From Nitrospira sp. CR1.1 (GTDB taxonomy: Bacteria > Nitrospirota > Nitrospiria > Nitrospirales > Nitrospiraceae), in contig WIAF01000002.1 in the NCBI GenBank assembly GCA_014055465.1, forward strand, positions 310,001 to 374,000: 64,000 nt of DNA. Direction: 5' to 3'. Of the stretch, positions 1,403 through 23,813 are shown piece by piece. How positions within the stretch are numbered: the stretch's first letter is position 1; each line of letters begins with the position of its first letter. Position numbers and translations under genes: made by a program. The notes beneath the pieces were generated by a model that searched no databases, was not told the DNA's origin, and was given only the letters and a program-made list of their open reading frames with translations.

Positions 1403-2116
1403 TCACACCTCCTGATAGACGAGTCCCTTCCCAAGCACCAGTTGCAAAATCGTGCCGCTGAACCAAATGGGATGGCCCGAGAGCAGATCCTCCCAGGTCT
1501 TGATGAACACGATCCGCGGGATCTCAATCTCGCCTCTGATCCGGCGATAGGCGTTCCGGGTGGACCATTGGTGCCGCATCTCTTCCCACAGTCGGCTAAT
1601 TGGGAACCCGAGGGAGCGCTTCCAGGACCAGCACATATTCACGTAGCCGCATTGATCCTGGACATATTGGCTGATGACGTACCGGCTGAGTCGATTGCGG
1701 GACCGATGACTCGGCTGATAGGCCTTGATCCAGACCACCGGAGCCCCGTGGAGAGCTTGCCACTGGGACGAGAGCCATTCCTGGGAGACCCAGAACCTTC
1801 GGGCACGTTCCCCATCCGGCACCCGCCAGGCCCAGAAGATATGAAGCACGCCATGCCCCTCTTCCGTCCGGACCTGGTAATACTCCAACCCCTGAAATCC
1901 CAGCTGGCGTTCAATCCGCTGGCGCAGCTGCTTGTGGTGATAGGTCAGCTTTTCCGCATCCCCGCCTTCTGCCGTGGAGAGCGTCACCCAGAGGACTTGG
2001 AACTGGTGGCACTCCCAGAACCACAAGAGCGACCGCACCCGGTGGTAGCCTCGTTTCTGTTTCCTCGTCCATTCCCCGGCGACGGGCTCCCGCCGGAACT
2101 CCTTCCAGCGGCTCAT
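1403..2116 (-). CDS. Putative rolling-circle replication initiator (HUH-like) of an integrative element
   Basis: This 237-aa basic, Trp- and Arg-rich protein resembles replication-associated proteins of small phages and plasmids. A degenerate metal-binding stretch, EEGHGVLHIFWAW near residue 90, looks like the histidine motif of HUH endonucleases. Further on, SRYVISQYVQDQ near residue 145 carries two tyrosines four residues apart and could hold the nicking tyrosine. The start ATG overlaps the stop of the upstream HTH gene by 4 bp (ATGA), so translation is coupled. With an integrase and a tRNA target close by, this suggests an element that can replicate as a circle after excision. The assignment comes from motif reading only. 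A different nuclease or an unrelated element protein remains possible. Confidence 0.45.
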   Translation of the reverse strand: MSRWKEFRREPVAGEWTRKQKRGYHRVRSLLWFWECHQFQVLWVTLSTAEGGDAEKLTYHHKQLRQRIERQLGFQGLEYYQVRTEEGHGVLHIFWAWRVPDGERARRFWVSQEWLSSQWQALHGAPVVWIKAYQPSHRSRNRLSRYVISQYVQDQCGYVNMCWSWKRSLGFPISRLWEEMRHQWSTRNAYRRIRGEIEIPRIVFIKTWEDLLSGHPIWFSGTILQLVLGKGLVYQEV

Positions 2117-2322
2117 CGGGCAGCCTCCGCTTGAGGAATGGCCGGCCTCAGGCCGGCAGCGAGAATCCGTTCCAATTCCTCAATGGGAATCCGCACGGCA
2201 CGCACGGACGGCTTCACATAGGCAATCTGCCGTTTCAGGATGTATTTCCTGATCGTGCTTTCTTTGAGTCCTAAGCGTTCGGCCGCTTCTCGAATGGTGA
2301 TCAATTTTGTACTCGGGACCAT
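2113..2322 (-). CDS. Excisionase/MerR-like helix-turn-helix DNA-binding protein
   Basis: A 69-aa protein built around one HTH of the excisionase type: ITIREAAERLGLKESTIRKY (about residues 9-28), then basic residues and VRIPIEELERIL. Such proteins bind operator or attachment-site DNA and act as directionality factors or small repressors. I chose the ATG at 2322 because AAGGAGGTG lies 5 nt upstream. A longer in-frame version reaching 2406 would cover the promoter region. It is the first gene of the minus-strand cassette and overlaps the replication-like gene by 4 bp. Inverted repeats just upstream (2357-2397) are likely binding sites. Confidence 0.75.
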   Translation of the reverse strand: MVPSTKLITIREAAERLGLKESTIRKYILKRQIAYVKPSVRAVRIPIEELERILAAGLRPAIPQAEAAR

Positions 2323-2356
2323 CGGGCACCTCCTTGGTAATGAGCGAATCATTAGT

Positions 2357-2420
2357 GTTATGCCTTGTATACGTGATGCATAACGTGTCTTGACACGCAT
2401 TACCATTGACGAGGTACACT
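2357..2420. promoter_or_regulatory. Divergent promoter/operator of the integrative element
   Basis: The 205 bp between the HTH gene and the plus-strand zinc-finger gene hold two inverted repeats. GTTATGC (2357-2363) and GCATAAC (2378-2384) are 21 bp apart, two helical turns. CGTGTC-TT-GACACG fills 2384-2397. A minus-strand -10-like TATACA (2366-2371) lies between the first pair. A plus-strand TTGACA (2390-2395) overlaps the second, with TACACT 19 bp downstream (2415-2420). This arrangement suits a switch controlled by the HTH protein. The repeats are seen directly; their function is inferred. Confidence 0.5.
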
Positions 2421-2527
2421 TCCCAAGAGTTTTCAGTCCGAAAGTGGCTCGTTCACCTCCAGTTTTTTCGTATGAAATGGGATGGAGTAATGAAGCTGCC
2501 GAAGCCAGCTACAGAAGGAGAGGTCAG

Positions 2528-3244
2528 ATGAACATAGACCGAGCCGCAATCTTTGAGCAGTTCTACGGCGAGATGAAGAAGGCCAGAGAGCGGATTCTCA
2601 CCACAGCAGACGGCGAAGTCGGCTGGCTCTTGAAGTTTGTCCAGACCGACCTAGAAGCGCTCACGCCAAGTGAATGGATGGTTCTGGCTTTCGAGGTAGC
2701 CAGCTTTGTGGATGACGTCGCGAATCGCCATGGGGAAGAAATCGCGACGGAAGGAGGATGGAGCGTCCAATCTATCCCAGGAGAGAAGTTTCGTGGCACT
2801 ATTCCAAGCCGCGCAGAGGCCAAAGAGATTCAGACCATGGTCCTCCGCAGCTTAGAGAACTTATGGAAAAAGGCAGTGGCTGCCTTCACGTTTCCCCAAT
2901 TCACGATCATTGTCACGTTGCCGGGCGCGGACCATGAACGCAAAGGGAGTGTGTTTGTTGCCACAAAGCGAAAAGTGAAGGAGTTTGAATATCGGTTCGC
3001 CCATTTATTGGTCGACTATTCCGGGCGAATTCGGCGTTGTCCAGAATGCCAACGGATTTACCTCGCCATTCGATTTGATCAAACCTACTGCGGTCCTCGG
3101 TGCCAGACACGAGTGGCCACTCGGAAATGGCGAGAGAAACATCTACCGAAGAAACAAAAAGCCTCTGGAGATACGACTAGCACGAAGGCCGATTCGGCCA
3201 GAAAAGGGCGAAAGGGAGGGTCCGATGGCAAGGCGAAACGGTAA
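2528..3244 (+). CDS. Hypothetical protein with C-terminal CGNR-like zinc finger
   Basis: A 238-aa protein of unknown function. The first 170 residues show no motif I recognise. Near the C terminus IRRCPECQRIYLAIR is followed by YCGPRCQTR, a four-cysteine zinc finger of the kind seen in CGNR-type transcription-related proteins. A basic Lys-rich tail follows. I chose the ATG at 2528, which has GGAGAGG just upstream. In-frame starts at 2390 and 2477 lie in or near the promoter region and lack a good site. The gene overlaps the integrase start by 20 bp, so the two are translationally coupled. A regulatory or DNA-binding role in the element is plausible but unproven. Confidence 0.6.
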   Translation: MNIDRAAIFEQFYGEMKKARERILTTADGEVGWLLKFVQTDLEALTPSEWMVLAFEVASFVDDVANRHGEEIATEGGWSVQSIPGEKFRGTIPSRAEAKEIQTMVLRSLENLWKKAVAAFTFPQFTIIVTLPGADHERKGSVFVATKRKVKEFEYRFAHLLVDYSGRIRRCPECQRIYLAIRFDQTYCGPRCQTRVATRKWREKHLPKKQKASGDTTSTKADSARKGRKGGSDGKAKR

Positions 3245-4427
3245 AGACCGTGGAGTGGTGTTTAAACAAGGCGGTTGGTGGGTTCGCCTGTATGTGAATG
3301 GCCGGGAGAAATGGTTCCGGGCGGACTCCAAGAGCCAAGCCAAGACGCTGTACGGTCGGTTGCGGTCCGAGGCGCGCGAGAATCGCTATTTTCCCGAGAA
3401 GTATGCCGTTTCCAAAGAGTTGACCCTCCGAGCATGGATTGCGCGGTATCTGGAAGGAGTGACCTCGCCAGGTCTTCGGAATGTGCATCGCTATGGAAAG
3501 TTCTGGTCGAAGCTCCTAGGGCGGAAGCTTTTGACCGAGATTACCGCCGACGACTTACGGCATATCCAAGCCAAAATGAAGCACAAGGGCACACGCACCG
3601 CCCGAACGATTAATCGCTACTTTGGAGCCCTACGACGTATCCTGAACTTGGCGATTGCCGATGGTCTGCTTTCCGCCAATCCCATCAAAGGCGTGAAGTT
3701 CTTTTCCGAGCCTGGTGGGCGGCTTCGCTTCCTGAGTGATAAGGAAATCTCCAGCCTCCGGGATACCTTGCCTCCGGAGCACTGGTTGATTGTGGCCTTT
3801 GCACTCGAAACAGGCCTACGCCTGACCGAGCAGTTTCATTCCCGCTGGGACTGCCTGAACACGGAACAGGGCATCTTGACCATTCCATTGAGTAAGTCAG
3901 GCAAGACCCGCCACGTCATTCTGACGGATGCCGCGCTGGACATCGTCAAGGGTCTCACCTCCTGGATGCACAGCCCCTTTCTTTTCCCGAGTCCCCTCAC
4001 CTCCGCACAACCGATGCAGGGGCGAAACTTTGTGGTGAAGATCTATGAACCTGCCTTGAAACGAGCAAAAATCGAAGGAGTGACCTGGCACACCCTCCGG
4101 CATACCTTCGCGTCTCGGGCTGTGATGGCAGGAGTCGATATCCGGACCGTCCAGGAATTGATGGGCCATTCCACGATCACCATGACCATGCGCTATGCGC
4201 ATCTCTCCCCGGCTCATTTACGCACAGCAGTGAATCGAGCGAGTTTGGGGGCAATTGCCGCGAAAAGTGCGAGTGGAACCGGGAGTAAAACCGGGAGTAG
4301 CGATAATCAGCGGGTTGAACAGGGTCCGGTCAGAATCACCGAACCCTCTGAGATATTTACAGGAATGGTTGGAGGCGCCGGGCGGGTTCGAACCGCCGCA
4401 TCGCAGTTTTGCAGACTGCTCCCTTAG
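3225..4427 (+). CDS. Tyrosine recombinase/integrase
   Basis: A 400-aa phage-type integrase that catalyses site-specific recombination between the element and its chromosomal target. It has an N-terminal arm-binding part (GVVFKQGGWWVRLYVNG), a SAM-like core-binding domain (about residues 65-160) and a catalytic domain. Visible catalytic residues are Arg in ALETGLRLTEQ, HTLRH (His-x-x-Arg), His in LMGHSTITM and the nucleophile Tyr in MRYAHLS. The ATG at 3225 has GGGAGGG 4 nt upstream and lies inside the end of the preceding gene. The last 18 or so codons, including the stop at 4425-4427, lie within the antisense of the tRNA-Cys gene. This shows that the tRNA 3' end is the attachment site. Confidence 0.93.
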   Translation: MARRNGKDRGVVFKQGGWWVRLYVNGREKWFRADSKSQAKTLYGRLRSEARENRYFPEKYAVSKELTLRAWIARYLEGVTSPGLRNVHRYGKFWSKLLGRKLLTEITADDLRHIQAKMKHKGTRTARTINRYFGALRRILNLAIADGLLSANPIKGVKFFSEPGGRLRFLSDKEISSLRDTLPPEHWLIVAFALETGLRLTEQFHSRWDCLNTEQGILTIPLSKSGKTRHVILTDAALDIVKGLTSWMHSPFLFPSPLTSAQPMQGRNFVVKIYEPALKRAKIEGVTWHTLRHTFASRAVMAGVDIRTVQELMGHSTITMTMRYAHLSPAHLRTAVNRASLGAIAAKSASGTGSKTGSSDNQRVEQGPVRITEPSEIFTGMVGGAGRVRTAASQFCRLLP

Positions 4428-7925: not shown

Positions 7926-8924
7926 TTACGACCGGAACCGGTAGGTGAAGACGGTTGAGAGGGTAAAATCAGCCGCACTCCCGGTGATGAAATCCAAATT
8001 TTCGACTCCGTACACCTGCCAGAGCAGACCGGGCAGAATCCGATAACTGACGCCGATCACCGATTCGGTCACACCCTTGTCCAGCACCCTGGTTCCGGTG
8101 CCGTGAAAAGGCGGTGAGTAGTAATCGAACTGCGCGGTGATGGAAAAATTGTCCGTCCAGAGATATTCCACGGCCACCAACCCGCTGATGACCGGCTGAA
8201 GGGCGAGCCCGGCGATCTGTCCTGTAGGAAACACCCCGTTTAAGTTGGCATAGACGATCCACCCGGTCGCGAAGGTCTTATCCAGCGCGAGACCGATGCC
8301 CGCATCCGGATGTCCGCTGCCGAAGATCTGTTCCGTATCTCCGGTCGGAGCTTTGACCCCCACGCGAAACGACAGGGCCGGAAGCGTCGAGGTTTCTTTC
8401 AGCAGTTGATATTTCCCGTAGAACGAAATATCGCCCAGCCCCGTTGCGCCCTTGGCGCCCTGAAACAGGGTCCGGCCGCCGTTGGTCACATTGAAGGCGT
8501 AGGCCGTTTCCCTCAGTGCTTTGCGGGCCGGAGAAATCCCGGTCGTCCCCCGCTCTACCCCGAGGATCGGCTCCTCCATGAACCCGCGATACCGGTGATA
8601 GCCCGGCACTTCCGCCCCGATTTCCAGCCGGTCGGTCAGACCATACCGCAAGAACAACCCGGCCCGGACGGTCTCAAACTTCATGGTCACGTCGGCCTGC
8701 TCGCTCTGGTCACGGGCGATCGAGGCGGTATTGGCCGCTTCGAGACGGATGTCGAAATCGCCCTTGCGCAGCACGGCCGCCCGCTCGCCGGGCATCGCCA
8801 GCACCAATTGATCCAGTGCCTGGAAGTTTCTGACGGGAAAGGGACCAAACCCTTCCGCGCCAGCCGGGAGCGGCAGGCTGCACGAAAGCGCGAGGAGGCA
8901 ACACAAATAGACGATCTGCCGCAT
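7926..8924 (-). CDS. DUF3187-like outer-membrane beta-barrel protein
   Basis: A 332-aa protein with a Sec signal peptide (about residues 1-23, ending LPAGA-EG). The rest is made of alternating polar/apolar strands and ends in an aromatic-Arg terminus (FTYRFRS), as in outer-membrane barrels. The start of the mature part, GPFPVRNFQALDQLVLAMPG, and the SFRVGVKAPTGDTEQIFGSG region resemble the DUF3187 family, whose function is unknown. It is the last gene of a minus-strand run that begins at squalene-hopene cyclase and includes an Mla-type lipid transporter. It lies 37 nt after the preceding barrel gene. A role in outer-membrane lipid handling is inferred from position only. Confidence 0.6.
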   Translation of the reverse strand: MRQIVYLCCLLALSCSLPLPAGAEGFGPFPVRNFQALDQLVLAMPGERAAVLRKGDFDIRLEAANTASIARDQSEQADVTMKFETVRAGLFLRYGLTDRLEIGAEVPGYHRYRGFMEEPILGVERGTTGISPARKALRETAYAFNVTNGGRTLFQGAKGATGLGDISFYGKYQLLKETSTLPALSFRVGVKAPTGDTEQIFGSGHPDAGIGLALDKTFATGWIVYANLNGVFPTGQIAGLALQPVISGLVAVEYLWTDNFSITAQFDYYSPPFHGTGTRVLDKGVTESVIGVSYRILPGLLWQVYGVENLDFITGSAADFTLSTVFTYRFRS

Positions 8925-8961
8925 GAGTCATACCCGGCCGTTCACTCAGGCGTTGAGGCGA

Positions 8962-10167
8962 TTAATAGGGAAAATCCAACCCGGCGAAAATCGCCCCGCC
9001 TTCGCGGCTATATCCGTAATCCAGACGGCCAACAACGTTCGGACGGACAATCGCTCGAAAGCCCACGCCCGGCGTCATTCGGTAATCTTGAAAGCTCACA
9101 TCCTTAAATGAGTTGAACACCTGGCCCGTATCCAGAAACGGAGCCAGTTCGAAATCCGCGGTCACCCCGGCCAGCTTCGTGCGCAAGATATGAATCCGCT
9201 CCTCGATACTGAAGGCGATCAAATGTTTGTCGATATAGCGATCCATCCCGAACCCGCGCAGATTGTTCTGGCCGCCCAGCGACGACTGTTCAAAGAACGG
9301 CACTTGCGAGCCAATCGTGGCCTGCAGATCGGCCCGGACAACGAGGATGGCACGCTTGGATTCGCTGGGAAATAACTTTTTCACTTCGATTTCGTAACGC
9401 GAATACACGGGATGGTCGCCGTTTTTCACATTTTGATTCAGCTCGGCGTAGGCCATGACGGACATGCCGTCAGTGGGCGTGATCAGGCTGTCACGGGTAT
9501 CGTAATAAAATGAGGCCCGATGCCCGACAATGATGGACTCGCCTTGAATACCGTCCACGGTGGGGAATTGCTCGACCGAGAAGGGAAGGTCCGTGGCGCC
9601 CCGCTGGAGTTGCACCTGCCGGACCCGCTGCCCGACCGAAACTTGCGTCACCTCGTTCGCATAGAGGCCAAGCCGCCAGTAGGCACGCGCTTCTCTGGCC
9701 GTGTAATTCGATTCATCCGCCTGTACGGTCGACTGCCCCAAGCCGAAGAACCGCGAGGTCGCGTTTTTGAAGAAGGTCCCGCCGAAGTTCAGAAAATACT
9801 GCCCGTTTCCGAAGGCCGGATCGACATAGTCGAACAGCACCTTGCGCTCGATCTTCTCGGTCAGCGAGGCGATCAGCTTCATTTGTCGGCCGCCCAGATC
9901 GTACTTGAAGAGATTGAACACCGCGCGGCTGCCGACGATCGAGTTCTGAATCAGCATCGGCGCCATGAGGTACTTCAATTCGCCGTCTGGATCGGAAATC
10001 AAAATCGGGGCAATCAAGCCGACGTCGTTCCCATCGTTCTTGCTGGTAGAGACCGACGGAACCGGAAAAATTTGCGTGTCAGCCCCTGCCGGGGACGGAG
10101 AACCCGCGAAAAGGAGTCCGGCCAGCGCCAGGAGAATACGGATCGACGAAAAATAATGTCGCTGCAT
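8962..10167 (-). CDS. Omp85/surface-antigen-type outer-membrane barrel without POTRA domains
   Basis: A 401-aa protein with a signal peptide (about residues 1-29, ending SPAGA). The barrel resembles the bacterial surface antigen (D15/BamA C-terminal) domain. The conserved loop 6 element GGQNNLRGFGMDRY is present, and the protein ends DYGYSREGGAIFAGLDFPY with a terminal aromatic. BamA or TamA would be 570-800 aa with POTRA repeats; none fit here. It follows mlaC by 33 nt in the same run, where many bacteria would have mlaA or nothing. It may serve as the outer-membrane partner of this transporter. That is inference; it could also be a phospholipase-like patatin-barrel relative lacking its enzyme domain. 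Confidence 0.68.
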   Translation of the reverse strand: MQRHYFSSIRILLALAGLLFAGSPSPAGADTQIFPVPSVSTSKNDGNDVGLIAPILISDPDGELKYLMAPMLIQNSIVGSRAVFNLFKYDLGGRQMKLIASLTEKIERKVLFDYVDPAFGNGQYFLNFGGTFFKNATSRFFGLGQSTVQADESNYTAREARAYWRLGLYANEVTQVSVGQRVRQVQLQRGATDLPFSVEQFPTVDGIQGESIIVGHRASFYYDTRDSLITPTDGMSVMAYAELNQNVKNGDHPVYSRYEIEVKKLFPSESKRAILVVRADLQATIGSQVPFFEQSSLGGQNNLRGFGMDRYIDKHLIAFSIEERIHILRTKLAGVTADFELAPFLDTGQVFNSFKDVSFQDYRMTPGVGFRAIVRPNVVGRLDYGYSREGGAIFAGLDFPY

Positions 10168-10200
10168 GGCGCTCGCCGGAACGGTCGCTCTCTCTTGACG

Positions 10201-10815
10201 CTACGGAGCTTTGATCTTGTCGGATTTCTTGCGGAGCTGATCAACGAGGTTGGAATACGAGGAGGTGTGAAGGATCTTCGTAAATTGCCCGCGGTAATTG
10301 TTCACCAGACTGACGCCATCGACCACGACGTCGTACACATGCCAATCGTTACTTCTATTCAGCAACCGATAGTCCATGGGAATTTCTGTTTTGCCGGACA
10401 AGACCTTGGTGCGCACTTCCGCATATTCTTTTTCCGTGCGTTCATTGAGGTATTGCACACCCTCGCCGGAATAGGTCTCCACCCGATCAGCATAGGTATT
10501 GGTCAACAGGGTCTGGAACAGGTCGACGAACTCCTGCTTCTCCTTGTCCGACAATTGATTCCACTGTGCACCCAACGATCGCCGCGACATTTCCGAATAG
10601 TCGAATCGCGCAGCCACAGCTTTTTCCAAGCGCTGCCGTCGGTCTTCATGCCGGGCAGGGGCCTTCAATTCCTTATCGCTCAAGATCTTGAGCACCTCAT
10701 CGATAGTCCCCCTGATCGATTCGGTCGCCGGACCGGCCATGGCAGACGACAACCCGCCCATGAACAGTTGCAGCGCCGCGAAGACACCCACGACCATCCA
10801 TCGCCTTACACGCAT
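10201..10815 (-). CDS. mlaC: MlaC-type periplasmic phospholipid-binding protein
   Basis: MlaC (Ttg2D) carries phospholipids across the periplasm between the inner-membrane MCE complex and the outer membrane. The protein is 204 aa, usual for the family, with a signal peptide of about 26 residues (MRVRRWMVVGVF...SSAMA-GP). It shows the family pattern DYSEMSRRSLGAQWNQLSD and the conserved middle VYDVVVDGVSLVNNYRGQF. I chose the ATG at 10815 because GGAGAGGTG lies 7 nt upstream; longer in-frame starts lack a signal-like start. It follows mlaD by 87 nt and precedes an outer-membrane barrel gene. Confidence 0.9.
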   Translation of the reverse strand: MRVRRWMVVGVFAALQLFMGGLSSAMAGPATESIRGTIDEVLKILSDKELKAPARHEDRRQRLEKAVAARFDYSEMSRRSLGAQWNQLSDKEKQEFVDLFQTLLTNTYADRVETYSGEGVQYLNERTEKEYAEVRTKVLSGKTEIPMDYRLLNRSNDWHVYDVVVDGVSLVNNYRGQFTKILHTSSYSNLVDQLRKKSDKIKAP

Positions 10816-10902
10816 TTCAACACCTCTCCTGTGAGTGAGGATCTCCTCGCCCAACCGGTCCCGTTTGCCTATTGCCGTCCTCCGACGCATGAGCCGATGA
10901 GA

Positions 10903-11346
10903 CTAGTTGACCTTACCATGTACATACTGGCTAACCAGTTCCTCCAGATCAAGCCCTGATTCGGTGTCACGGATTTTGTCGCCGGGCTTCAATAGATCAC
11001 CGCCCCCGCCCACGGACAGCGCGAGATACTTATCCCCGATAATTCCGCGGGTTTTGATGGAGGCAATCGTGTCCGAATACAGCTTCACGCCATCCTGAAT
11101 CGCCAGCGCCACCAGTGCCCGATCGCTGGTGAGGCCGATGGTGCGGACCCGGCCGACCTCAACCCCGGCAATTTCCACCGATGCCCCAGGCTTGAGCCCC
11201 GAGGCCGATGTAAACTCCGCCTCGACCGGGTAATTGTGTCCGCCGATGACTTCCAGCTTGCCCAGCTTGATAGACAGATACCCCAGGCAGGCAATCCCGA
11301 CGAGCACGAAAATCCCGACCATCAATTCCAGTTTTGCACGCTCCAT
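10903..11346 (-). CDS. mlaD: MlaD-type MCE-domain protein
   Basis: MlaD forms the ring-shaped, membrane-anchored lipid-binding part of the Mla transporter. This 147-aa protein has one N-terminal membrane anchor (about residues 8-27). A single MCE domain follows (about 38-115), containing FTSASGLKPGASVEIAGVEV and IGDKYLALSVG. The C terminus LDLEELVSQYVHGKVN is the short helix typical of single-MCE proteins. AGGAG lies 6 nt upstream of the ATG. It starts 11 nt after the mlaF stop, so the two are surely in one operon. Confidence 0.93.
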   Translation of the reverse strand: MERAKLELMVGIFVLVGIACLGYLSIKLGKLEVIGGHNYPVEAEFTSASGLKPGASVEIAGVEVGRVRTIGLTSDRALVALAIQDGVKLYSDTIASIKTRGIIGDKYLALSVGGGGDLLKPGDKIRDTESGLDLEELVSQYVHGKVN

Positions 11347-11357
11347 AACGTCTCCTA

Positions 11358-12119
11358 TCAGCGACCCCCGGTCGACAACGCTTTGGGCGCGACCGTGCCT
11401 CCGACAAAAATAAACTCGCGAATCTCTTCATCGGTCGTGTTCACAAACTCGCTCGAAGGAGCCATCTCGGCAATCCGGCCGTTCTTGAGCATCGCCACGT
11501 AATCGGAAATTCCAAAAATTTCAGGAATCTCATGACTGACCATCACGGCCGTGAACCGGAATTGCTGCTGCATCGCCACGATGAGGTCGTGAATGGCCTT
11601 CGCCATCAAGGGATCGAGTCCCGTCGTCGGCTCATCGAACAAAATGATCTCCGGCTCCATCACCAGTGCGCGAGCCAATCCGGCGCGTTTGCGCATACCG
11701 CCGCTCAGCTCCGCGGGGAATTTATGCCCCATGCCCTTCAGCCCCACCTGCTCCAGCTTTTCCTCGACCCGCCTGGTCACGACGTCGCCTTTCAGGCGCA
11801 GTTTCTCCCGCAGCGGAAAGGCGACATTTTCAAACACCGTCATGGAGTCGAACAGGGCCGCCCCCTGAAAGAGCATCGCGAACTTCTTACGGACCTCGTT
11901 CAGAGCTTGTCCTTTCAGGCGGGCAATGTCCGTCCCGTCGATCCAGACTTCGCCGCGGTCCGGCTGCATCAGGCCGATGATGTGCTTCAGCAGCACACTT
12001 TTGCCTTCGCCGCTGCGCCCGATGATGGTCGTCAGTTTTCCTGTGGGAATGGCCAGGTCCACGCCGCGCAGCACGGCCTGTTTCCCCAACGTTTTTTCGA
12101 CACCGACGAGCTTAATCAT
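11358..12119 (-). CDS. mlaF: MlaF-type ABC transporter ATP-binding protein
   Basis: The ATPase of the Mla lipid transporter, 253 aa. Walker A is GRSGEGKS (residues 34-41), the Q loop is MLFQGAALFDS, the signature is LSGGMRKRAGLARAL, and Walker B is IILFDEPTTGLDP, followed by the switch His in VSHE. The GMRKR variant of the signature is typical for this subfamily (MlaF/Ttg2A). It sits between mlaE (83 nt upstream) and mlaD (11 nt downstream). It acts on the cytoplasmic side of the inner membrane as a dimer with MlaE. Confidence 0.95.
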   Translation of the reverse strand: MIKLVGVEKTLGKQAVLRGVDLAIPTGKLTTIIGRSGEGKSVLLKHIIGLMQPDRGEVWIDGTDIARLKGQALNEVRKKFAMLFQGAALFDSMTVFENVAFPLREKLRLKGDVVTRRVEEKLEQVGLKGMGHKFPAELSGGMRKRAGLARALVMEPEIILFDEPTTGLDPLMAKAIHDLIVAMQQQFRFTAVMVSHEIPEIFGISDYVAMLKNGRIAEMAPSSEFVNTTDEEIREFIFVGGTVAPKALSTGGR

Positions 12120-12202
12120 GTGAATCCAGCAAAGATACGATCAGCTTTCAGGAATCAGTTCGCATTCTAACGCTGAATGCTGAAGGCTGATGACTGACAG
12201 CT

Positions 12203-12970
12203 CTATAACAACACCGACGTCAGGAAATAATCCCACACCAGGATCAGCACTGCGGACAGCACCACGGCTTCGGTGGTCGCAGTTCCGAGACCTTCTGCGC
12301 TGTGCTTGGTGTGAAAGCCCTTATAACAACAGACCCAACTGATCAACAGCCCAAAGCTGATGGATTTCAGAATGCCGCCATACACATCCTTCCACTCCAC
12401 CGCCGACTCGATTGAACTCCAGTAGGCGCCTTCATTCCCGTTCAGCAACTGCACACCAACCACGTAGCCGCCGTAAATTCCGACCACGTCGAATAGGGCC
12501 ACCAGCAGCGGCACGGCGATCACACTGGCCACGAGCTTGGGGCCGATCAGATATTGCAGCGGATTGATGGCCATGGTATCCAGCGCATCAATCTGCTCGG
12601 TAATCCGCATGATGCCGATCTCGGCCGTCATGGCAGACCCTGCACGGGCCGTCACCATCAAGGCTGCGAGGACCGGCCCTAACTCACGAATGATGCTGAG
12701 CGCCACAGCTGAACCCAGCACCGCCTCGGATCCGAATTTCCGCAGCGTGTAGTAGCCTTGAAGGGCCAGGACCATGCCCGTAAAGACGGCGGTGAGGACG
12801 ACCACGAAAGTGGATTTGTAGCCGATAAAATTCAGTTGTTTGACGATTTGATACAACCTGAACGGCGGACGGGTCAGCCAGGCAAAGGACGAGAGAACGA
12901 ACATCATCATCCGCCCCATCTGCTCCGTCAGATCGATGGTAAACCGTCCGATGCGAGCAATACCGTCCAC
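12203..12970 (-). CDS. mlaE: MlaE-type ABC transporter permease
   Basis: The membrane subunit of the Mla lipid transporter, 255 aa with about five to six hydrophobic segments. Conserved stretches are TGMVLALQGYYTLRKFG, RELGPVLAALMVTARAGSAM, TAEIGIMRITEQIDALDTM and NPLQYLIGPK, all hallmarks of the MlaE/YrbE family. I chose the GTG at 12970, which has AAGGAGGG 7 nt upstream and gives a protein of normal length. Longer in-frame forms overlap hpnG. It lies 53 nt downstream of hpnG on the same strand, joining the transporter to the hopanoid genes. Confidence 0.93.
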   Translation of the reverse strand: MDGIARIGRFTIDLTEQMGRMMMFVLSSFAWLTRPPFRLYQIVKQLNFIGYKSTFVVVLTAVFTGMVLALQGYYTLRKFGSEAVLGSAVALSIIRELGPVLAALMVTARAGSAMTAEIGIMRITEQIDALDTMAINPLQYLIGPKLVASVIAVPLLVALFDVVGIYGGYVVGVQLLNGNEGAYWSSIESAVEWKDVYGGILKSISFGLLISWVCCYKGFHTKHSAEGLGTATTEAVVLSAVLILVWDYFLTSVLL

Positions 12971-13023
12971 GCCTCGCCCTCCTTTTGTCTCCCGAACCGG
13001 ACCCGGCCTCCCGTCGCTCCCGC

Positions 13024-13779
13024 TCAGTCGAGTCCTTCGCGCAGGGCCCGGTCGGCACAGGATCGATACAAGGCCGTTAACTGCGCCCCTGCGACCTGAC
13101 TTTGTACCCTCAGACGATTGAGCCCGACCAGGCTCGCTGGATGGGTCACACACGCAACCACACCCTTTGCCCATCCAGATGGCCTGAGAAACAGGTTGAA
13201 GTCAAGCGGCAGGCTCTCATCCACGAGATCCGACACCGTACGCACGATCGCAAATGGAATCCCCTGCTCCAAAGCCACCCGCCCCAAGGCCGCGCTTTCC
13301 ATGTCGAGGCCGATGCCTCCAACCCGTCCGGCGATCTCCCGCTTTTCCTCCGCCAGGCAGAGCACCCGCGGAACCGTGACAAACCTTCCACTTTGCATAG
13401 GCAGAACCTGCGTGCGAACTGCCTGCTTCACCCACTCGACCATCGCGGGTGCGCACGGAACAGGACGTCCCGCTTGTGCGCTGTTTTCCAGGGTCGCCTC
13501 AGTGCCGATCAACACATCCCCGATGCCGGCCGGTCCCAGAGCACAGGCAAATCCTGTGGACCAGATGGCCGTCAAACGCTGCGCCGCGAGCACGCGTCGG
13601 GCGGTTGCTGCAGCCCGCTCCAGACCGACCCCCATAGGAATCATCCACCACTCGACTGACGCTTGGCGTGCCACCACACACCGGACTCCGCCGACGACCC
13701 GGACTTCCCTCGCGGAAAAGGCCTGCCGCACGGCGGCCAACTCCCATCGGGTGGCGACAAAAACACCGATCGTGGTCAC
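13024..13779 (-). CDS. hpnG: Hopanoid-associated nucleoside phosphorylase (HpnG-like)
   Basis: A 251-aa phosphorylase-superfamily protein. In hopanoid pathways HpnG removes adenine from adenosylhopane to give phosphoribosylhopane. The nucleosidase signature near residue 165 is GLDMESAALGRVALEQGIPF, followed by VRTVSDLVDESLPLD. These match the purine-binding region of MTA/SAH nucleosidase-like enzymes. Location right after squalene-hopene cyclase decides the name. I chose the GTG at 13779 because GGGAG lies 5 nt upstream; an ATG at 13827 would add 16 residues without a ribosome binding site. The alternative is a general purine nucleosidase. Confidence 0.82.
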   Translation of the reverse strand: MTTIGVFVATRWELAAVRQAFSAREVRVVGGVRCVVARQASVEWWMIPMGVGLERAAATARRVLAAQRLTAIWSTGFACALGPAGIGDVLIGTEATLENSAQAGRPVPCAPAMVEWVKQAVRTQVLPMQSGRFVTVPRVLCLAEEKREIAGRVGGIGLDMESAALGRVALEQGIPFAIVRTVSDLVDESLPLDFNLFLRPSGWAKGVVACVTHPASLVGLNRLRVQSQVAGAQLTALYRSCADRALREGLD

Positions 13780-13833
13780 AGCTGCTCCCGATGACGGCTG
13801 ACAAGGGAAAATGGACTCGATGAACATCCACGG

Positions 13834-16062
13834 TCAGCGGGGCGACCGGAACTGTCCTGATTGATAGGCCAACTGTCGCAATTCATCTGCCCTCGTCGTT
13901 CCACGAGTCTTCAGATTGCGGTACATGGCCAGCGCCCAGAGGGGGAAGTATTGGCAATACCAATGATAACGGAGGTAGAACACGCGAGGGAAACCGGTTC
14001 CGGTATGGCGTACCTCTTCCCATGACCCGTCCTTCCGCTGATTCCGAATGAGGTAATGAATACCTCTGGCCAGGCTGAAGGAGTCGGTGACTCCGCCGGC
14101 CATGAGGGCTAACAGCGCCCAGGCGGTTTGCGACGGCGTACTTTCGCCACAACCACTCTCCGCAACATCCGCATAGGAGAGGCAGGACTCACCCCATCCG
14201 CCGTCTGGATTTTGCTTCGATTCGATCCAACTGACCGCGCGGCGGATATACGGAGAAGAGAGATCTTCGCCGATGGCGCGCAGCCCGGACAGGACCGACC
14301 AGGTGCCGTAAATGTAATTCACGCCCCAACGCCCATACCAACTGCCGTCCTGCTCCTGGTCGTTTTTGACAAAGGCCAGCGCCGACGCCACTGACGGGTG
14401 CGTCCAGTCATAGCCCAGGGTCGCGAGCATTTCGAGACAACGTCCGGCCAGATCGGCCGTACTGGGATCCAATAACGCGCGATGGTCGGCGAACGGAATG
14501 TAGTTGAACACGATTCGATTATTGTCGACATCGTATGCGCCCCACCCGCCGTCGGACCCTTGCATGGCGGTGACCCACCGGCACCCCCGGCGAATAGCCA
14601 GCCGCTGCTGGTCTTCATCGGGCAGGCGCACTTTAGCCAAGGCCATGAGCACCACCGCCGAATCGTCTACGTCGGGGAACAGCTCGTTCTCAAACTGAAA
14701 GTACCAGCCGCCCGGTTCTGCGCCGGGGGACGAAATAATCCAGTCGCCGACGGTCTTTGTCTGTTTGGATAGCAGCCAAGTGGCCGCTTTTTGCAACGCC
14801 GGATGATCCTGCGACATACCTGCCTCGGACAGCGCATTGATGAGCAAGGCGGTGTCCCAGATCGGGGAATGGCAGGGTTGCAGATGCAACGCATCGACGC
14901 ATTGCCCGCTCTCCATCACGGTATCGTGAATTTCCAGTTCCTCGATCTCCCGCATCGCTTTCATGACCAGAGGATCGTCATTTTTAAACCCCAGGCAATT
15001 CAGGGCCATCACCGAATTGGCCATGGCGGGATAAATGGCGCCGAGTCCACCGCTCCCCTTCATATGATCGAGCATCCAGTTCTCGGCGCACTTGAGCGCT
15101 TTCTGACGGACCCACTCGACAGGCGAGCGATCGTAGATTTTGAGCAGCGCATCGAGATTGATGAAAAAGTTTCGGGCCGTAAACCAGGTCCGGTCCTTCT
15201 TGAAAGGCGGTACCGTGCTGTAATCGATCTCCGCCGGGGGATGCGTATACAGCTCGTCGATACCCTGTTCCGGTGGAACGTAGCACTGGGGCCGTTTGGC
15301 GAAAATGATCAACAGCGGAATCAAGACCGCGCGCGACCAGTAGGAAATCGCGTAGATGCTGAAATAGAACCGCTTCGGCAACAGCATGATTTCCGGCGGC
15401 ATGCTGGGGACGCCGCGCCAATCGTACTGGCCGAACAAGGCCAGGGCGATTTTTGTGAAGACGTTCGCCGCCACCACCCCGCCCTTGTCGAGGATGCAGG
15501 TTCGCGCGTTGACCATGAATGGTTCAGCGGCCGAAACGCCGGAAAGCTTCAAGGCAAAGTACGCCTTCACGGAGGCGCTGATATCCGCCGGCCCCCCATG
15601 ATAAATGGGCCAGCCCCCGCACGGGAGTTGCGCGGACTTCAGATAACGGATGACCTTGCGCTCACGCTCCGGGTCGACGCAGTTCATGAACCGGCGCAAC
15701 ATCAGGTATTCGGAACTCAGCGTCGTATCGGCTTCCAGTTCGGCGACCCAAAAGCCTTCCGCCGCATCCTGCCTGGCCAGAAACCAGGCCTGACTCTTCC
15801 GAATCGCCTCTTCCAGAGCTTCTAACTGACCTGTCGTATGTGAAGGAGCCCGCTTGGTGCTCTCACCGGCCGGAGCGTCAGGCTTGCTGGAGACGAGGCG
15901 CAGCACCGGAGCGGAGGCAAAATCGCGCGCCGCCCTGATCCGGCTGGGCACCGACACCAGAAGACTATCGGACAGACGATTGAATAGATTCTTGAGAAGT
16001 CGCATAGCTTGTTGCCGTGAATCAGACAGAGACGGCGGGATCGATAGTCGAGACGGTTCCAT
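13834..16062 (-). CDS. shc: Squalene-hopene cyclase
   Basis: Cyclises squalene to hopene/hopanol, the first committed step of hopanoid synthesis, on the cytoplasmic membrane. The catalytic DxDD motif is present as PDVDDSAVV (near residue 464). Several QW repeats are visible, for example QGSDGGWGAYD, QDGSWYGRWG, NPDGGWGES and RKDGSWEE. At 742 aa it is longer than many relatives. The extra length is a basic N-terminal region (about residues 1-85) before the first QW-like repeat. An internal ATG at residue 20 is an alternative start; neither has a clear ribosome binding site. hpnG follows closely on the same strand. Confidence 0.96.
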   Translation of the reverse strand: MEPSRLSIPPSLSDSRQQAMRLLKNLFNRLSDSLLVSVPSRIRAARDFASAPVLRLVSSKPDAPAGESTKRAPSHTTGQLEALEEAIRKSQAWFLARQDAAEGFWVAELEADTTLSSEYLMLRRFMNCVDPERERKVIRYLKSAQLPCGGWPIYHGGPADISASVKAYFALKLSGVSAAEPFMVNARTCILDKGGVVAANVFTKIALALFGQYDWRGVPSMPPEIMLLPKRFYFSIYAISYWSRAVLIPLLIIFAKRPQCYVPPEQGIDELYTHPPAEIDYSTVPPFKKDRTWFTARNFFINLDALLKIYDRSPVEWVRQKALKCAENWMLDHMKGSGGLGAIYPAMANSVMALNCLGFKNDDPLVMKAMREIEELEIHDTVMESGQCVDALHLQPCHSPIWDTALLINALSEAGMSQDHPALQKAATWLLSKQTKTVGDWIISSPGAEPGGWYFQFENELFPDVDDSAVVLMALAKVRLPDEDQQRLAIRRGCRWVTAMQGSDGGWGAYDVDNNRIVFNYIPFADHRALLDPSTADLAGRCLEMLATLGYDWTHPSVASALAFVKNDQEQDGSWYGRWGVNYIYGTWSVLSGLRAIGEDLSSPYIRRAVSWIESKQNPDGGWGESCLSYADVAESGCGESTPSQTAWALLALMAGGVTDSFSLARGIHYLIRNQRKDGSWEEVRHTGTGFPRVFYLRYHWYCQYFPLWALAMYRNLKTRGTTRADELRQLAYQSGQFRSPR

Positions 16063-20105: not shown

Positions 20106-21068
20106 TTAGTTCGCGGAAGCCGCAGTGCGTGACGCAGACTCGATGGTGACCAATTCCTTTGGAAGGAGAAATTCCACGTCCTCTTCGATGACGGTCAATT
20201 CCTCGACCTCTTCCGAAGAGCCCAGGCGCTTCAGATAGGCCACCACTTCCGTGACGAGAACTTCAGGAGCGGAGGCGCCGGCCGATAGGCCCACGCTCTT
20301 CGCATCCTTCAACCAATCCGGATTGATATCCGATGCGGCATCGATCAGATAGGAGGGAATGCCGCAATGCTCGCCCAATTCACGCAACCGGTTCGAGTTG
20401 GAACTGTTCGGCGACCCGATGACGAGAATGACATCGACCAGCTTCGACAACGACTTGACCGCATTCTGGCGGTTCTGCGTGGCGTAACAAATATCTTCCT
20501 GATGCGGGCCTTTGATATTCGGAAAACGCCGATGCAGGGCTTCAACGATATCGCGGCATTCATCCACGCTGAGGGTCGTCTGGGTGACGTAGGAAAGATT
20601 CTGAGTTTTTTCAACGTGGAGCGTTTCCACATCCTGCACCGAGGACACCAGGTGAAACTTGTCCGGGATCTGGCCCAGCGTCCCGATGACCTCGGGGTGC
20701 CCCGCATGGCCGATCAGAATCAATTCGTAGCCTTGCGTGTAATCGCGGTTAACTTCGTTATGCACTTTGATCACCAGCGGGCAGGTGGCGTCGATCACAT
20801 GCAGGCGGCGGCTCTGCGCCTCTTCCCACACCGACTTCGCCACACCGTGGGCGCTGAAGATCACCACGGAACCTTCCGGCACCTCGTTTAACTCTTCCAC
20901 AAATACGGCGCCCTTGTGCCGGAGCGAATTCACCACGTGCCGGCTATGGACGATCTCATGGCGCACGTAAATCGGTGCGCCGTATTTTTTCAGGGACAAA
21001 TCGACAATATCGATAGCGCGGTCGACGCCCGCGCAGAATCCGCGAGGATTGGCTAAATAAATCTTCAT
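20106..21068 (-). CDS. ispH: 4-hydroxy-3-methylbut-2-enyl diphosphate reductase
   Basis: IspH (LytB) reduces HMBPP to IPP and DMAPP, the last MEP step, with a [4Fe-4S] cluster. The three cluster cysteines are visible in [24 protein letters not shown] and [11 protein letters not shown]. The substrate-binding motif [11 protein letters not shown] and [11 protein letters not shown] are intact. From the ATG at 21068 the protein has 320 aa; a start at 21092 would add eight residues without a ribosome binding site. It is a third MEP gene in the window, but smc and its own upstream gap separate it from dxs-ispG, so it is probably transcribed alone. Confidence 0.96.
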
Positions 21069-21240
21069 CTGCTGGTTCCCTCTCACACTCATGAAGGGCC
21101 GCCCGGCCGCCGGGAAACGCGCGGCATCTCACTAACCAGTCACCTTACGTCAGACCCGCTCGTGACGTCAACCGCGTTATCCAGCCCGTTCCGGCCGAAA
21201 AGCAGTTGAGGCTGTTGACCTATTGTGCAACAATCCCGCC

Positions 21241-21957
21241 ATGCCGGCTCCTTCCAGCACGCATAAAAAAATTCTGATCGTTGAAGATGAGAAAGATATT
21301 CTGCAACTCGTCAAACTCTACCTCGAGAAAGAGGGGTTCCGGACAGTTGCCGCCATGACCGGCACAGAGGGCCTTCGGCAGGTCAAAGCCGAACATCCCG
21401 ACCTGATTATTCTCGATCTCATGTTGCCTGAACTGGACGGCCTGGAGGTTTGCAAGCGGATCCGCCTGAATCAGGAGACCGCGCTGCTTCCCATTCTCAT
21501 GTTGACCGCCAAGGCGGAAGAGTCCGATACGGTCATTGGCCTAGAACTGGGAGCCGATGATTACGTGACCAAACCCTTCAGCCCCAAAGCCCTGGTGGCG
21601 CGGGTCAAGGCTTTGCTGCGCCGGCTAGACCGCAACGCGAACAGTCCTCAAACCCAATATCATTACGGCCCCTTGACCGTGGATCTCTCCCGGCATGAAG
21701 TCCGGCTAGAGGGTGAAGAAATCACGCTCACCGCGAAAGAATTCGGTCTCTTGGAACACCTACTGCGCAATGTCGGGCGGGTGCTCACGCGCGACGTCTT
21801 ACTCAGCGCCGTGTGGGGGTATGACTACTACGGGACCACGCGCACGGTGGATGTGCACGTGCGCCGGCTCAAACAGAAACTCCCGCTTCTGGATGACGCC
21901 ATCGTGTCGATCAAATCACTCGGATATAAATTGCGCGAGTCCGACATTCCGGCATGA
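21241..21957 (+). CDS. phoB: PhoB-like response regulator
   Basis: A 238-aa OmpR-family regulator. The receiver domain has IVEDEKDILQ, phospho-Asp in LIILDLMLPELDG and Lys in VTKPFSPKALVARVKALL. The winged-helix domain runs from about residue 135, with LTAKEFGLLEHLL and VDVHVRRLKQKL. The kinase gene overlaps its stop by 4 bp (ATGA). The genes downstream are a PiT phosphate transporter and a PhoU-like protein on the opposite strand, so a phosphate-starvation role is likely but not proven. A TTG at 21223 is an alternative start. I prefer the ATG at 21241 because it fits the usual N terminus. Confidence 0.85.
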   Translation: MPAPSSTHKKILIVEDEKDILQLVKLYLEKEGFRTVAAMTGTEGLRQVKAEHPDLIILDLMLPELDGLEVCKRIRLNQETALLPILMLTAKAEESDTVIGLELGADDYVTKPFSPKALVARVKALLRRLDRNANSPQTQYHYGPLTVDLSRHEVRLEGEEITLTAKEFGLLEHLLRNVGRVLTRDVLLSAVWGYDYYGTTRTVDVHVRRLKQKLPLLDDAIVSIKSLGYKLRESDIPA

Positions 21958-23813
21958 ACCTCGGCATCCGGTGGAAAGTCGCCCTGGGCACGCTCGCCGC
22001 CGTCCTCGTCGGCCTCGTGGTCGCGGGCTGGCTCGTGATCCGCTCGGTCGAACAGACCGAACTCAGCCGCATGGCCGAGATGCTGGAGACGCGCAGCGGC
22101 CTGGCCGCCATGACCCTCCGGCCGCTCTTTGACCACCCCGGACAAGCCGTTTCAGTACCGCTGCTTCATGCCACCGTCCACGAACTGAGCCACCAGGCTC
22201 ACCTTCGCATCACCGTCATCAAGCAGGACGGCACTGTGCTTTCGGATAGCGCCGTCCCCGCCGGGGGCCTGACACACGTCGACAATCATCTTGCTCGTCC
22301 AGAAGTGGCACAAGCCCTGGCATCAGGGCGAGGCATGGATATTCGAGCCAGCCAGACCACCGGAGAACGCACCTATTATGTCGCGCGACTCCTTTCAGAA
22401 CAGGTGCCCCTGCAACCGGGCGTTCCGGTCATCCGCCTCGGCCTGTCGTTGACCTCCATTGATGAGCGAGTGCGGCACATTCAGCAAGATCTGGTGACGG
22501 CGTTCGGCGCCGCCTTTCTCCTCGCCATGGCCCTCAGTCTCTGGGTCTCGCGTAATCTGACGAAGCCCCTGTCTGAGATGGCCGCTGCCGCCCACCAACT
22601 CGCGACGGGAACGCCGGGGATCCGCCTCATTGTCTCCTCATCGGACGAGGTCGGTTTGCTGGCGCAGACCCTCAACCAGATGACCGATCAGCTGGAAACG
22701 AAAATCAAGGAGGTCTCCGACGACCGCGCGCAACTCCTGGCCATGCTCATCGCGATGGTCGAGGGCGTCATGGTGTTGGATTATCGAGGAACGGTGGTCC
22801 AGGTCAATCCGGCGTTGGAGCGCATGTTCGCCTTGGAACTGACGGAATCGCGCGGCCGCCACTATGCCGAACTCATCCGGCACGAAGGACTGACCACGCT
22901 CGTCTCTGGCGTGCTGCAGACGCGTTCCGGCCAAGGCGGTGAAATTATCCTCTCCCCCAGCGGCCGCTGCCTGCGTGTGGAAGCGTCGATCGCCGGGGGC
23001 AGTCGCGAGCAGGAAGCCTGTGCCGTGTTCGTCTTCCACGACATCACCGAGCTGCGCCGGCTGGAGAAAATCCGCAAAGATTTCGTCGCGAACGTGTCCC
23101 ATGAGCTTCGCACACCGCTCACATCCATCAAGGGATACGTGGAGGCCCTGCTGGACGGAGGCAAGGATGATCCTGCGACGGCCGCCGCGTTTTTGGAAAT
23201 CATCATGCGGCAAAGCAATCGCCTGAACCTCATCCTCGACGACCTGCTGCAGTTATCGCAAATCGAGTCCGGACAGGTGCTGTTTCGCCGGGAACCGGTG
23301 GAATTGCGGGCCTTGCTGGAACGAACGGTTGCAGTCATCAAACCGTTAGCGGACAAGAAGCACCATACGATCGAGTTGTCGCTTCCGGAGGAGTATGTCG
23401 TGGTGGAAGGGGACGAAGAGCGCCTGGCCCAGGTCTTTATCAACCTGCTGGAAAACGCCGTGAAATACACCCCGGATCAGGGACGAATCTCCATGACCAT
23501 CCGGCATGCGACTCAAAGCCGGTCGGTTTCAGCCCGCCCGATGATTGAGGTCCTCGTGGCAGACTCGGGAATCGGCATTCCCGAAGCGGACCGGCCGCGA
23601 GTGTTCGAACGATTCTACAGAGTCGATAAGGCCCGCTCGCGCGAACTGGGTGGAACCGGCCTGGGGCTCGCCATCGTCAAACATATTGTCGAGGCTCATA
23701 ACGGGCATGTCTGGGTGGAAGGCAATGCGCCGAGAGGCAGCCGTTTTGTGGTTCACCTCCCCGTGGCGCAGGAATCGCCTACAACAATTTCGACAGGAGC
23801 AGGTAACACATAG
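21954..23813 (+). CDS. phoR: PhoR-like sensor histidine kinase
   Basis: A 619-aa membrane kinase. TM1 spans about residues 7-28 and TM2 about 180-200, with a periplasmic region between them. A HAMP domain (200-255), a PAS domain (260-370) and HisKA follow; HisKA has the H box VSHELRTPLTSIKGYVEALL. The ATPase domain has the N box INLLENAVKYTPD, ADSGIGIPEADRPRVFERFY and GTGLGLAIVKH. The order and PAS content match PhoR. The C terminus overlaps the end of the convergent pit gene by 35 bp. The long periplasmic loop is larger than in E. coli PhoR and could sense a ligand directly. Confidence 0.88.
   Translation: MNLGIRWKVALGTLAAVLVGLVVAGWLVIRSVEQTELSRMAEMLETRSGLAAMTLRPLFDHPGQAVSVPLLHATVHELSHQAHLRITVIKQDGTVLSDSAVPAGGLTHVDNHLARPEVAQALASGRGMDIRASQTTGERTYYVARLLSEQVPLQPGVPVIRLGLSLTSIDERVRHIQQDLVTAFGAAFLLAMALSLWVSRNLTKPLSEMAAAAHQLATGTPGIRLIVSSSDEVGLLAQTLNQMTDQLETKIKEVSDDRAQLLAMLIAMVEGVMVLDYRGTVVQVNPALERMFALELTESRGRHYAELIRHEGLTTLVSGVLQTRSGQGGEIILSPSGRCLRVEASIAGGSREQEACAVFVFHDITELRRLEKIRKDFVANVSHELRTPLTSIKGYVEALLDGGKDDPATAAAFLEIIMRQSNRLNLILDDLLQLSQIESGQVLFRREPVELRALLERTVAVIKPLADKKHHTIELSLPEEYVVVEGDEERLAQVFINLLENAVKYTPDQGRISMTIRHATQSRSVSARPMIEVLVADSGIGIPEADRPRVFERFYRVDKARSRELGGTGLGLAIVKHIVEAHNGHVWVEGNAPRGSRFVVHLPVAQESPTTISTGAGNT

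Follow-up and report, generated by a model that had tools for sequence, protein, structure and literature searches.

The window (the whole stretch of Nitrospira sp. CR1.1 DNA that was analysed, 64,000 nucleotides, G000:C2:310001-374000) was annotated by family-profile scans and by reading of the translations. Hopanoids are sterol-like lipids of bacteria, and dxs encodes the enzyme that opens the MEP pathway to isoprenoids. An earlier note had placed eight genes, from a squalene-hopene cyclase (SHC) through hpnG and mlaE, mlaF, mlaD and mlaC to an Omp85-like and a DUF3187-like barrel, in a single minus-strand run with short gaps; all eight were confirmed between positions 16062 and 7926. The run extends past those limits, with dxs and ispG downstream and ispH and smc (named by eye) upstream. 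Its features, from upstream to downstream, are as follows.

20106-21092, minus strand: ispH (4-hydroxy-3-methylbut-2-enyl diphosphate reductase), upstream neighbour, named by eye from its translation
13834-16062, minus strand: squalene-hopene cyclase (shc/hpnF), TIGR01507 763 bits (cut-off 431), PF13243/PF13249
13024-13827, minus strand: HpnG-like hopanoid-associated phosphorylase, PF01048 66.8 bits; TIGR03468 93.2 bits, under the cut-off of 187.1
12203-12970, minus strand: mlaE, MCE-type ABC permease, PF02405 282 bits; TIGR00056 269.5 bits, over the cut-off of 212
11358-12119, minus strand: mlaF, ABC ATPase, PF00005; top NCBIfam match MlaF PRK11831, 221 bits, under its equivalog cut-off
10903-11346, minus strand: mlaD, single-MCE-domain protein of 147 aa, TIGR04430 141 bits (cut-off 135), PF02470
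10201-10815, minus strand: MlaC-family periplasmic lipid-binding protein, PF05494 171.5 bits
8962-10167, minus strand: POTRA-less Omp85-family outer-membrane barrel of 401 aa, PF01103 68.7 bits, LRGFG motif
7926-8924, minus strand: DUF3187 outer-membrane-type protein, PF11383 78 bits
5799-7742, minus strand: dxs, TIGR00204 821 bits
4548-5747, minus strand: ispG, MEP pathway, NF001540 494 bits

Intergenic gaps measured 6-83 nt from SHC to the DUF3187 gene, 183 nt from there to dxs and 51 nt from dxs to ispG. No MlaB (STAS) subunit was found in the cluster when the gaps between the listed genes were inspected, since gaps of 6-83 nt are too small to hold one. The phosphorylase was labelled HpnG-like because of its position and superfamily, its TIGR03468 score having missed the cut-off. 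The start of mlaE was set at GTG 12970 (Shine-Dalgarno AGGAGG) in preference to ATG 13174 of the longest open reading frame, and that of the MlaC-family gene probably lies at ATG 10815, the longest frame beginning at 10890. MlaF carries Walker A (GRSGEGKS), signature (LSGGMRKR) and Walker B (ILFDEP) motifs. A scan for promoters and terminators gave sites no commoner than in shuffled sequence. The run can be read as an isoprenoid-to-hopanoid operon, presumably co-transcribed. Among the named records read, the nearest loci were those of Nitrospira defluvii NOB1 or Nitrospira MAG_246; identities to the window proteins were 84% (MlaC) and 95% (Omp85) for L173, and 87% and 89%, respectively, for L174.

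Two features named by eye flank the run. A tyrosine-recombinase gene (2985-4427, plus strand) with a small excisionase-like frame (2113-2406) adjoins ispG (window 1403-4427), at a position that is the HpnH site in many relatives of other genera. A response regulator and sensor kinase pair (21223-23813) lies directly upstream of ispH on the opposite strand.

The MlaC-family protein was modelled with AF2 at a pLDDT of 80, and the model shows an MlaC fold, its closest solved folds being MlaC/Ttg2D-type phospholipid-binding proteins (VIA Z 14-21). The barrel model was weaker (pLDDT 68) and matched TamA/BamA barrels at E 1e-9; a PDB sequence search using the barrel gave zero matches. Membership of the Omp85 superfamily was indicated by a C-terminal barrel with the RGF motif (LRGFG), and the family-profile scan gave no POTRA match in the 401-aa protein. 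A short subgroup of Omp85 proteins is without POTRA domains. With the HpnM profile (TIGR03481) the MlaC-family protein scored 104.6 bits, under the cut-off of 160.1, and an unlinked paralogue in the same genome scored 100.8 bits. Likeness to HpnM was rejected as a sign of hopanoid cargo, because the unlinked MlaC paralogues of this genome also fit HpnM better than MlaC.

Elsewhere in the genome, HpnH, which is required for C35 hopanoids, was found at C2:280873-281823 (551 bits), about 33 kb from the recombinase/ispG region, so that SHC in the window and HpnH outside it were both recovered from the hopanoid biosynthesis set. The earlier note had asked whether hpnN, the gene for the RND-type protein linked to hopanoid export, lies elsewhere in the genome; nothing scored over the cut-off of TIGR03480, the best match (66.8 vs 751.85 bits; 102 bits in a second search) being an MMPL/RND protein of about 823-859 aa at C8:87996. 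The stretch read around that gene (L061) held no SHC, HpnG or Mla homologue. Two further MlaE genes were present (C1 and C3, the C1 copy STAS-fused), with long MlaD proteins (320 and 330 aa) and no adjoining MlaC, and two extra MlaC-family genes were adjacent to no MlaE, the C3 MlaE having one of them about 12 kb away. The SHC-linked cluster was the only system read in the genome that pairs MlaC with a short MlaD. MlaA was found as a single unlinked copy at C1:520047 and was missing from the cluster.

Neighbourhoods of SHC were compared across 20 genera of the order, other Nitrospirota families, 80 loci of a GTDB genome scan and 40 Methylomirabilota loci; the profiles used for annotation were made from the proteins of the window itself plus a few others encoded at the loci. 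When each genus was represented by a single locus, SHC, HpnG and MlaC were present there in 20/20 genera, and MlaC adjoined SHC in all 20, including those without MlaEFD. MlaE, MlaF and MlaD were at the locus in 16/20, dxs and ispG in 18/20, the Omp85 barrel in 15/20, smc in 15/20 and DUF3187 in 12/20; ispH homologues lay upstream of SHC in 11/20, every one of them in family f1 (Nitrospiraceae-type). Genes outside the run were shared by 0-3 of the 20; the control on the ispH side is partial, as the loci reach only about 5 kb beyond SHC in the upstream direction. In a deduplicated table, where scan loci were merged if their titles started the same way, MlaE was encoded near SHC and co-strand with it in 31/31 f1, 5/5 f2, 2/8 f3, 3/5 f14 and 31/41 Methylomirabilota genomes, and such a neighbour was counted in 0/18 Cyanobacteria, 0/4 Chloroflexota and 0/5 Thermodesulfobacteriota loci. 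Absences are weak where a contig ends close to SHC. A second MlaE of normal size is present in f2 genomes and in G030. In every counted case MlaE and SHC were co-strand. The linkage of SHC with Mla is far above chance. Neither of the findings that the earlier note named as refuting its idea turned up: HpnN stayed under the cut-off in this genome and in the 37 f1 genomes searched first, and Mla genes were linked to hopanoid genes throughout the relatives compared.

Three gene orders were seen in two phyla. The first is SHC-HpnG-MlaE-F-D-C. In the distant Nitrospirota family f14 (L124) one co-directional run reads MlaE-F-D-TolC-MlaC-B12 radical SAM-HpnH-SHC-HpnG, and no MlaA was found in the f14 genomes G063 and G072. 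The third, SHC-MlaE-F-D-(TolC)-MlaC, is the usual order in Methylomirabilota (L200 and others), three loci of which read Mla-TolC-MlaC-HpnN-MlaC-SHC. A TolC-family gene between MlaD and MlaC was also noted in several Nitrospirota (L124, L125, L126, L132), with or without SHC.

Loss of the MlaEFD engine from the locus was accompanied by retention of its partners. In genera g11 and g16 no MlaE was found in the genome, MlaC was still beside HpnG, and HpnN lay at another site with MlaA and a further MlaC as neighbours. In genus g17 of f3 MlaEFD was missing from the locus and MlaC and Omp85 were kept, and the Omp85 barrel stayed with SHC-HpnG where Mla was missing there (f20, 7/8; f8; f3 g17). In f4 the MlaEFD slot is occupied by an MMPL/RND protein roughly 840 aa long, as seen in one complete example (L069: SHC-HpnG-RND-MlaC-Omp85-dxs-ispG) and in consistent fragments (L118, SHC-RND-MlaC; L120, SHC-HpnG-RND at a contig end; L119, RND-MlaC with SHC undetected). 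At the f20 loci L082, L083 and L086 the Omp85 barrel and ispH come after SHC (with HpnG), and Mla genes are absent beside them.

MlaE and MlaC trees were quick trees with long branches, and on the Nitrospirota MlaE tree the SHC-linked label needs two changes, a starred branch grouping the f14 MlaE with SHC-unlinked MlaE. With Methylomirabilota added to the MlaE tree, three label changes were needed, two of them forced by starred branches. HpnN-linked MlaC proteins formed a clade of their own, separate from the order's SHC-linked MlaC. The MlaC of G035 (L047), a genome that lacks SHC, had been considered as a linked orthologue and was rejected, its neighbours resembling those of the unlinked-paralogue locus L136.

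HpnN was rare in the sampled Nitrospirota. None of the 37 f1 genomes of the first search had a match over the cut-off, the f1 genome G197 of the second sample does carry HpnN, and at E<=1e-60 only 11 of the 89 SHC-positive genomes had it (198 Nitrospirota searched). An HpnN-like RND protein lay beside SHC in 16/41 Methylomirabilota, many of them also with Mla. Strict mutual exclusion of Mla and HpnN was rejected, both being present in G044, G197 and many Methylomirabilota loci. At L063, L064, L065, L066 and L143 the HpnN gene adjoins MlaA and an MlaC-family gene, which suggests that HpnN works together with Mla parts.

To our knowledge, hopanoid delivery to the outer membrane has been worked out for HpnN only. 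HpnN is given as an RND hopanoid transporter of Rhodopseudomonas palustris and Burkholderia multivorans in work cited in PMC12583986; that paper also reports HpnN from every predicted hopanepolyol producer among the alphaproteobacteria it studied, and describes HpnM as possibly transport-related. The run resembles HpnN in the proposed task, moving hopanoids from the inner to the outer membrane, and in lying near hopanoid genes, but HpnN belongs to the RND superfamily, MlaFED is an ABC/MCE machine, and HpnN is absent over the cut-off in this genome. HpnM shares with the window MlaC protein the PF05494 family, membership of hopanoid clusters and a suspected transport role (PMC12583986), whereas the latter is under the HpnM cut-off and outside the HpnN-linked MlaC clade. 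As in the Mla system (MlaFEDB-MlaC-MlaA), the MlaE, MlaF, MlaD and MlaC families are encoded together and the MlaC fold is shared; unlike it, the run is embedded in hopanoid/MEP genes, has no MlaB or MlaA in the cluster and has an Omp85 barrel (TolC in f14 and some Methylomirabilota) at the position of the outer-membrane partner. Acidithiobacillia also have Mla and hpn systems in one organism (PMC8886135), but there mlaDCEF lies beside spermidine genes with the hpn cluster separate, and here both form a single run. AmeABCD of Castellaniella defragrans (PMC6394551) is a HAE3-type RND system for terpenes with periplasmic and outer-membrane partners; these are not MlaC or MlaA, and the parallel extends only to the RND variant of f4. 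Genes of the pathway are on record as shc and hpnH in cultured marine Nitrospirales (PMC10579370) and hpnP in Rokubacteria (PMC10697835). In the open-access literature searched, no publication was found that joins Mla with hopanoid genes.

On these grounds the run is tentatively read, at a confidence somewhat short of even, as a MlaFED-MlaC shuttle embedded in a hopanoid operon and serving hopanoids or hopanoid-coupled or co-regulated outer-membrane lipids. Dxs, IspG and IspH would supply the isoprenoid precursor, SHC would form the hopene skeleton, and side-chain building would involve the HpnG-like protein. MlaFED would then act as the inner-membrane ABC/MCE engine and the MlaC-family protein would ferry lipid across the periplasm to a likely outer-membrane partner, the Omp85 barrel with or without the DUF3187 protein. 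The likeliest cargo would be hopanoids, or a lipid swapped to accommodate hopanoids in the outer membrane. Because the Mla genes form a single run with hopanoid genes and most such Nitrospirota are without HpnN, the Mla shuttle stands as the leading candidate for transfer of hopanoids or a hopanoid-linked lipid between the membranes. The proposal of the earlier note, that a Mla-type system could carry such lipids to the outer membrane, is partly supported: the linkage and the missing HpnN favour a hopanoid-linked shuttle. Its case is built on location, recurrence and retention; hopanoid cargo and direction are inferred. A stronger version, which we regard as possible and rather doubtful, makes MlaFED-MlaC with the Omp85 barrel a dedicated ABC/MCE-powered hopanoid transporter and an alternative to HpnN, its SHC linkage having arisen at least twice (Nitrospirota and Methylomirabilota) and its engine having given way, in a single Nitrospirota family, to an RND protein in the matching slot of the operon.

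The rival that survives best, less likely than not though a serious contender, is an ordinary Mla system that maintains phospholipid asymmetry with the unlinked MlaA, carries no hopanoids and is co-encoded since both set outer-membrane lipid composition. The short MlaD beside MlaC, in a genome whose other two MlaE systems are of the long-MlaD type, one of them STAS-fused, fits this reading, as does MlaA in nearly all f1 genomes; that MlaA never lies inside the f1 SHC-linked cluster speaks against it. SHC-negative Nitrospirota families keep orthologous operons (MlaEFD-TolC-MlaC, MlaEFD-MlaA-MlaC, or MlaEFDC with MlaA nearby), so the Mla machine itself is independent of hopanoids. MlaA-MlaC-RND clusters in f7 (SHC-negative, L131) and f8 (L134) are instances of RND replacing MlaFED within a Mla system, and the swap was rejected as hopanoid-specific because RND-MlaC-MlaA is also found in f7. 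With Mla operons in SHC-negative families and MlaA-MlaC-RND in f7 and f8, there is no general tie of Mla, or of the RND swap, to hopanoids. The SHC-negative Mla operons, the unlinked MlaA and the Methylomirabilota that combine Mla with an HpnN-like RND protein leave room for a general phospholipid role under co-regulation. Against ordinary Mla stand the MlaC and Omp85 barrel that remain with SHC after loss of MlaEFD, the f14 linkage of Mla to SHC without MlaA in G063 and G072, and the recurrence of SHC linkage in a second phylum in a different order.

Delivery of hopanoids by a distant MMPL/RND protein such as that at C8:87996, with Mla doing retrograde clearing, is improbable: the weak HpnN matches of the C8 protein and the RND-MlaC pairs in relatives would suit it, but the protein is far under the HpnN cut-off and no SHC, HpnG or Mla homologue accompanies its gene in L061. 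Least probable of all is neutral clustering in an old envelope and isoprenoid superoperon (smc, dxs, ispG, ispH) with no functional coupling of Mla to hopanoids, a reading that the retention of smc, which has no known link to hopanoid transport, would favour. It is opposed by the occurrence of three arrangements across two phyla, by the two or more label changes that the MlaE trees require, by the shared strand in all counted cases and by the unconserved flanking genes.

Repeated linkage, retention of MlaC and the barrel, and the RND swap open the idea of a hopanoid route to direct testing. In Nitrospira that lack HpnN, hopanoids would reach the outer membrane, or be kept in balance there, by way of the MlaFED-MlaC shuttle. 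Such a Mla-type route, if true, would add a sterol-like cargo to those of MCE transporters and would explain how a large HpnN-free group manages, most sampled SHC-positive Nitrospirota being without HpnN and having among them nitrite oxidizers relevant to hopanoid biomarkers.
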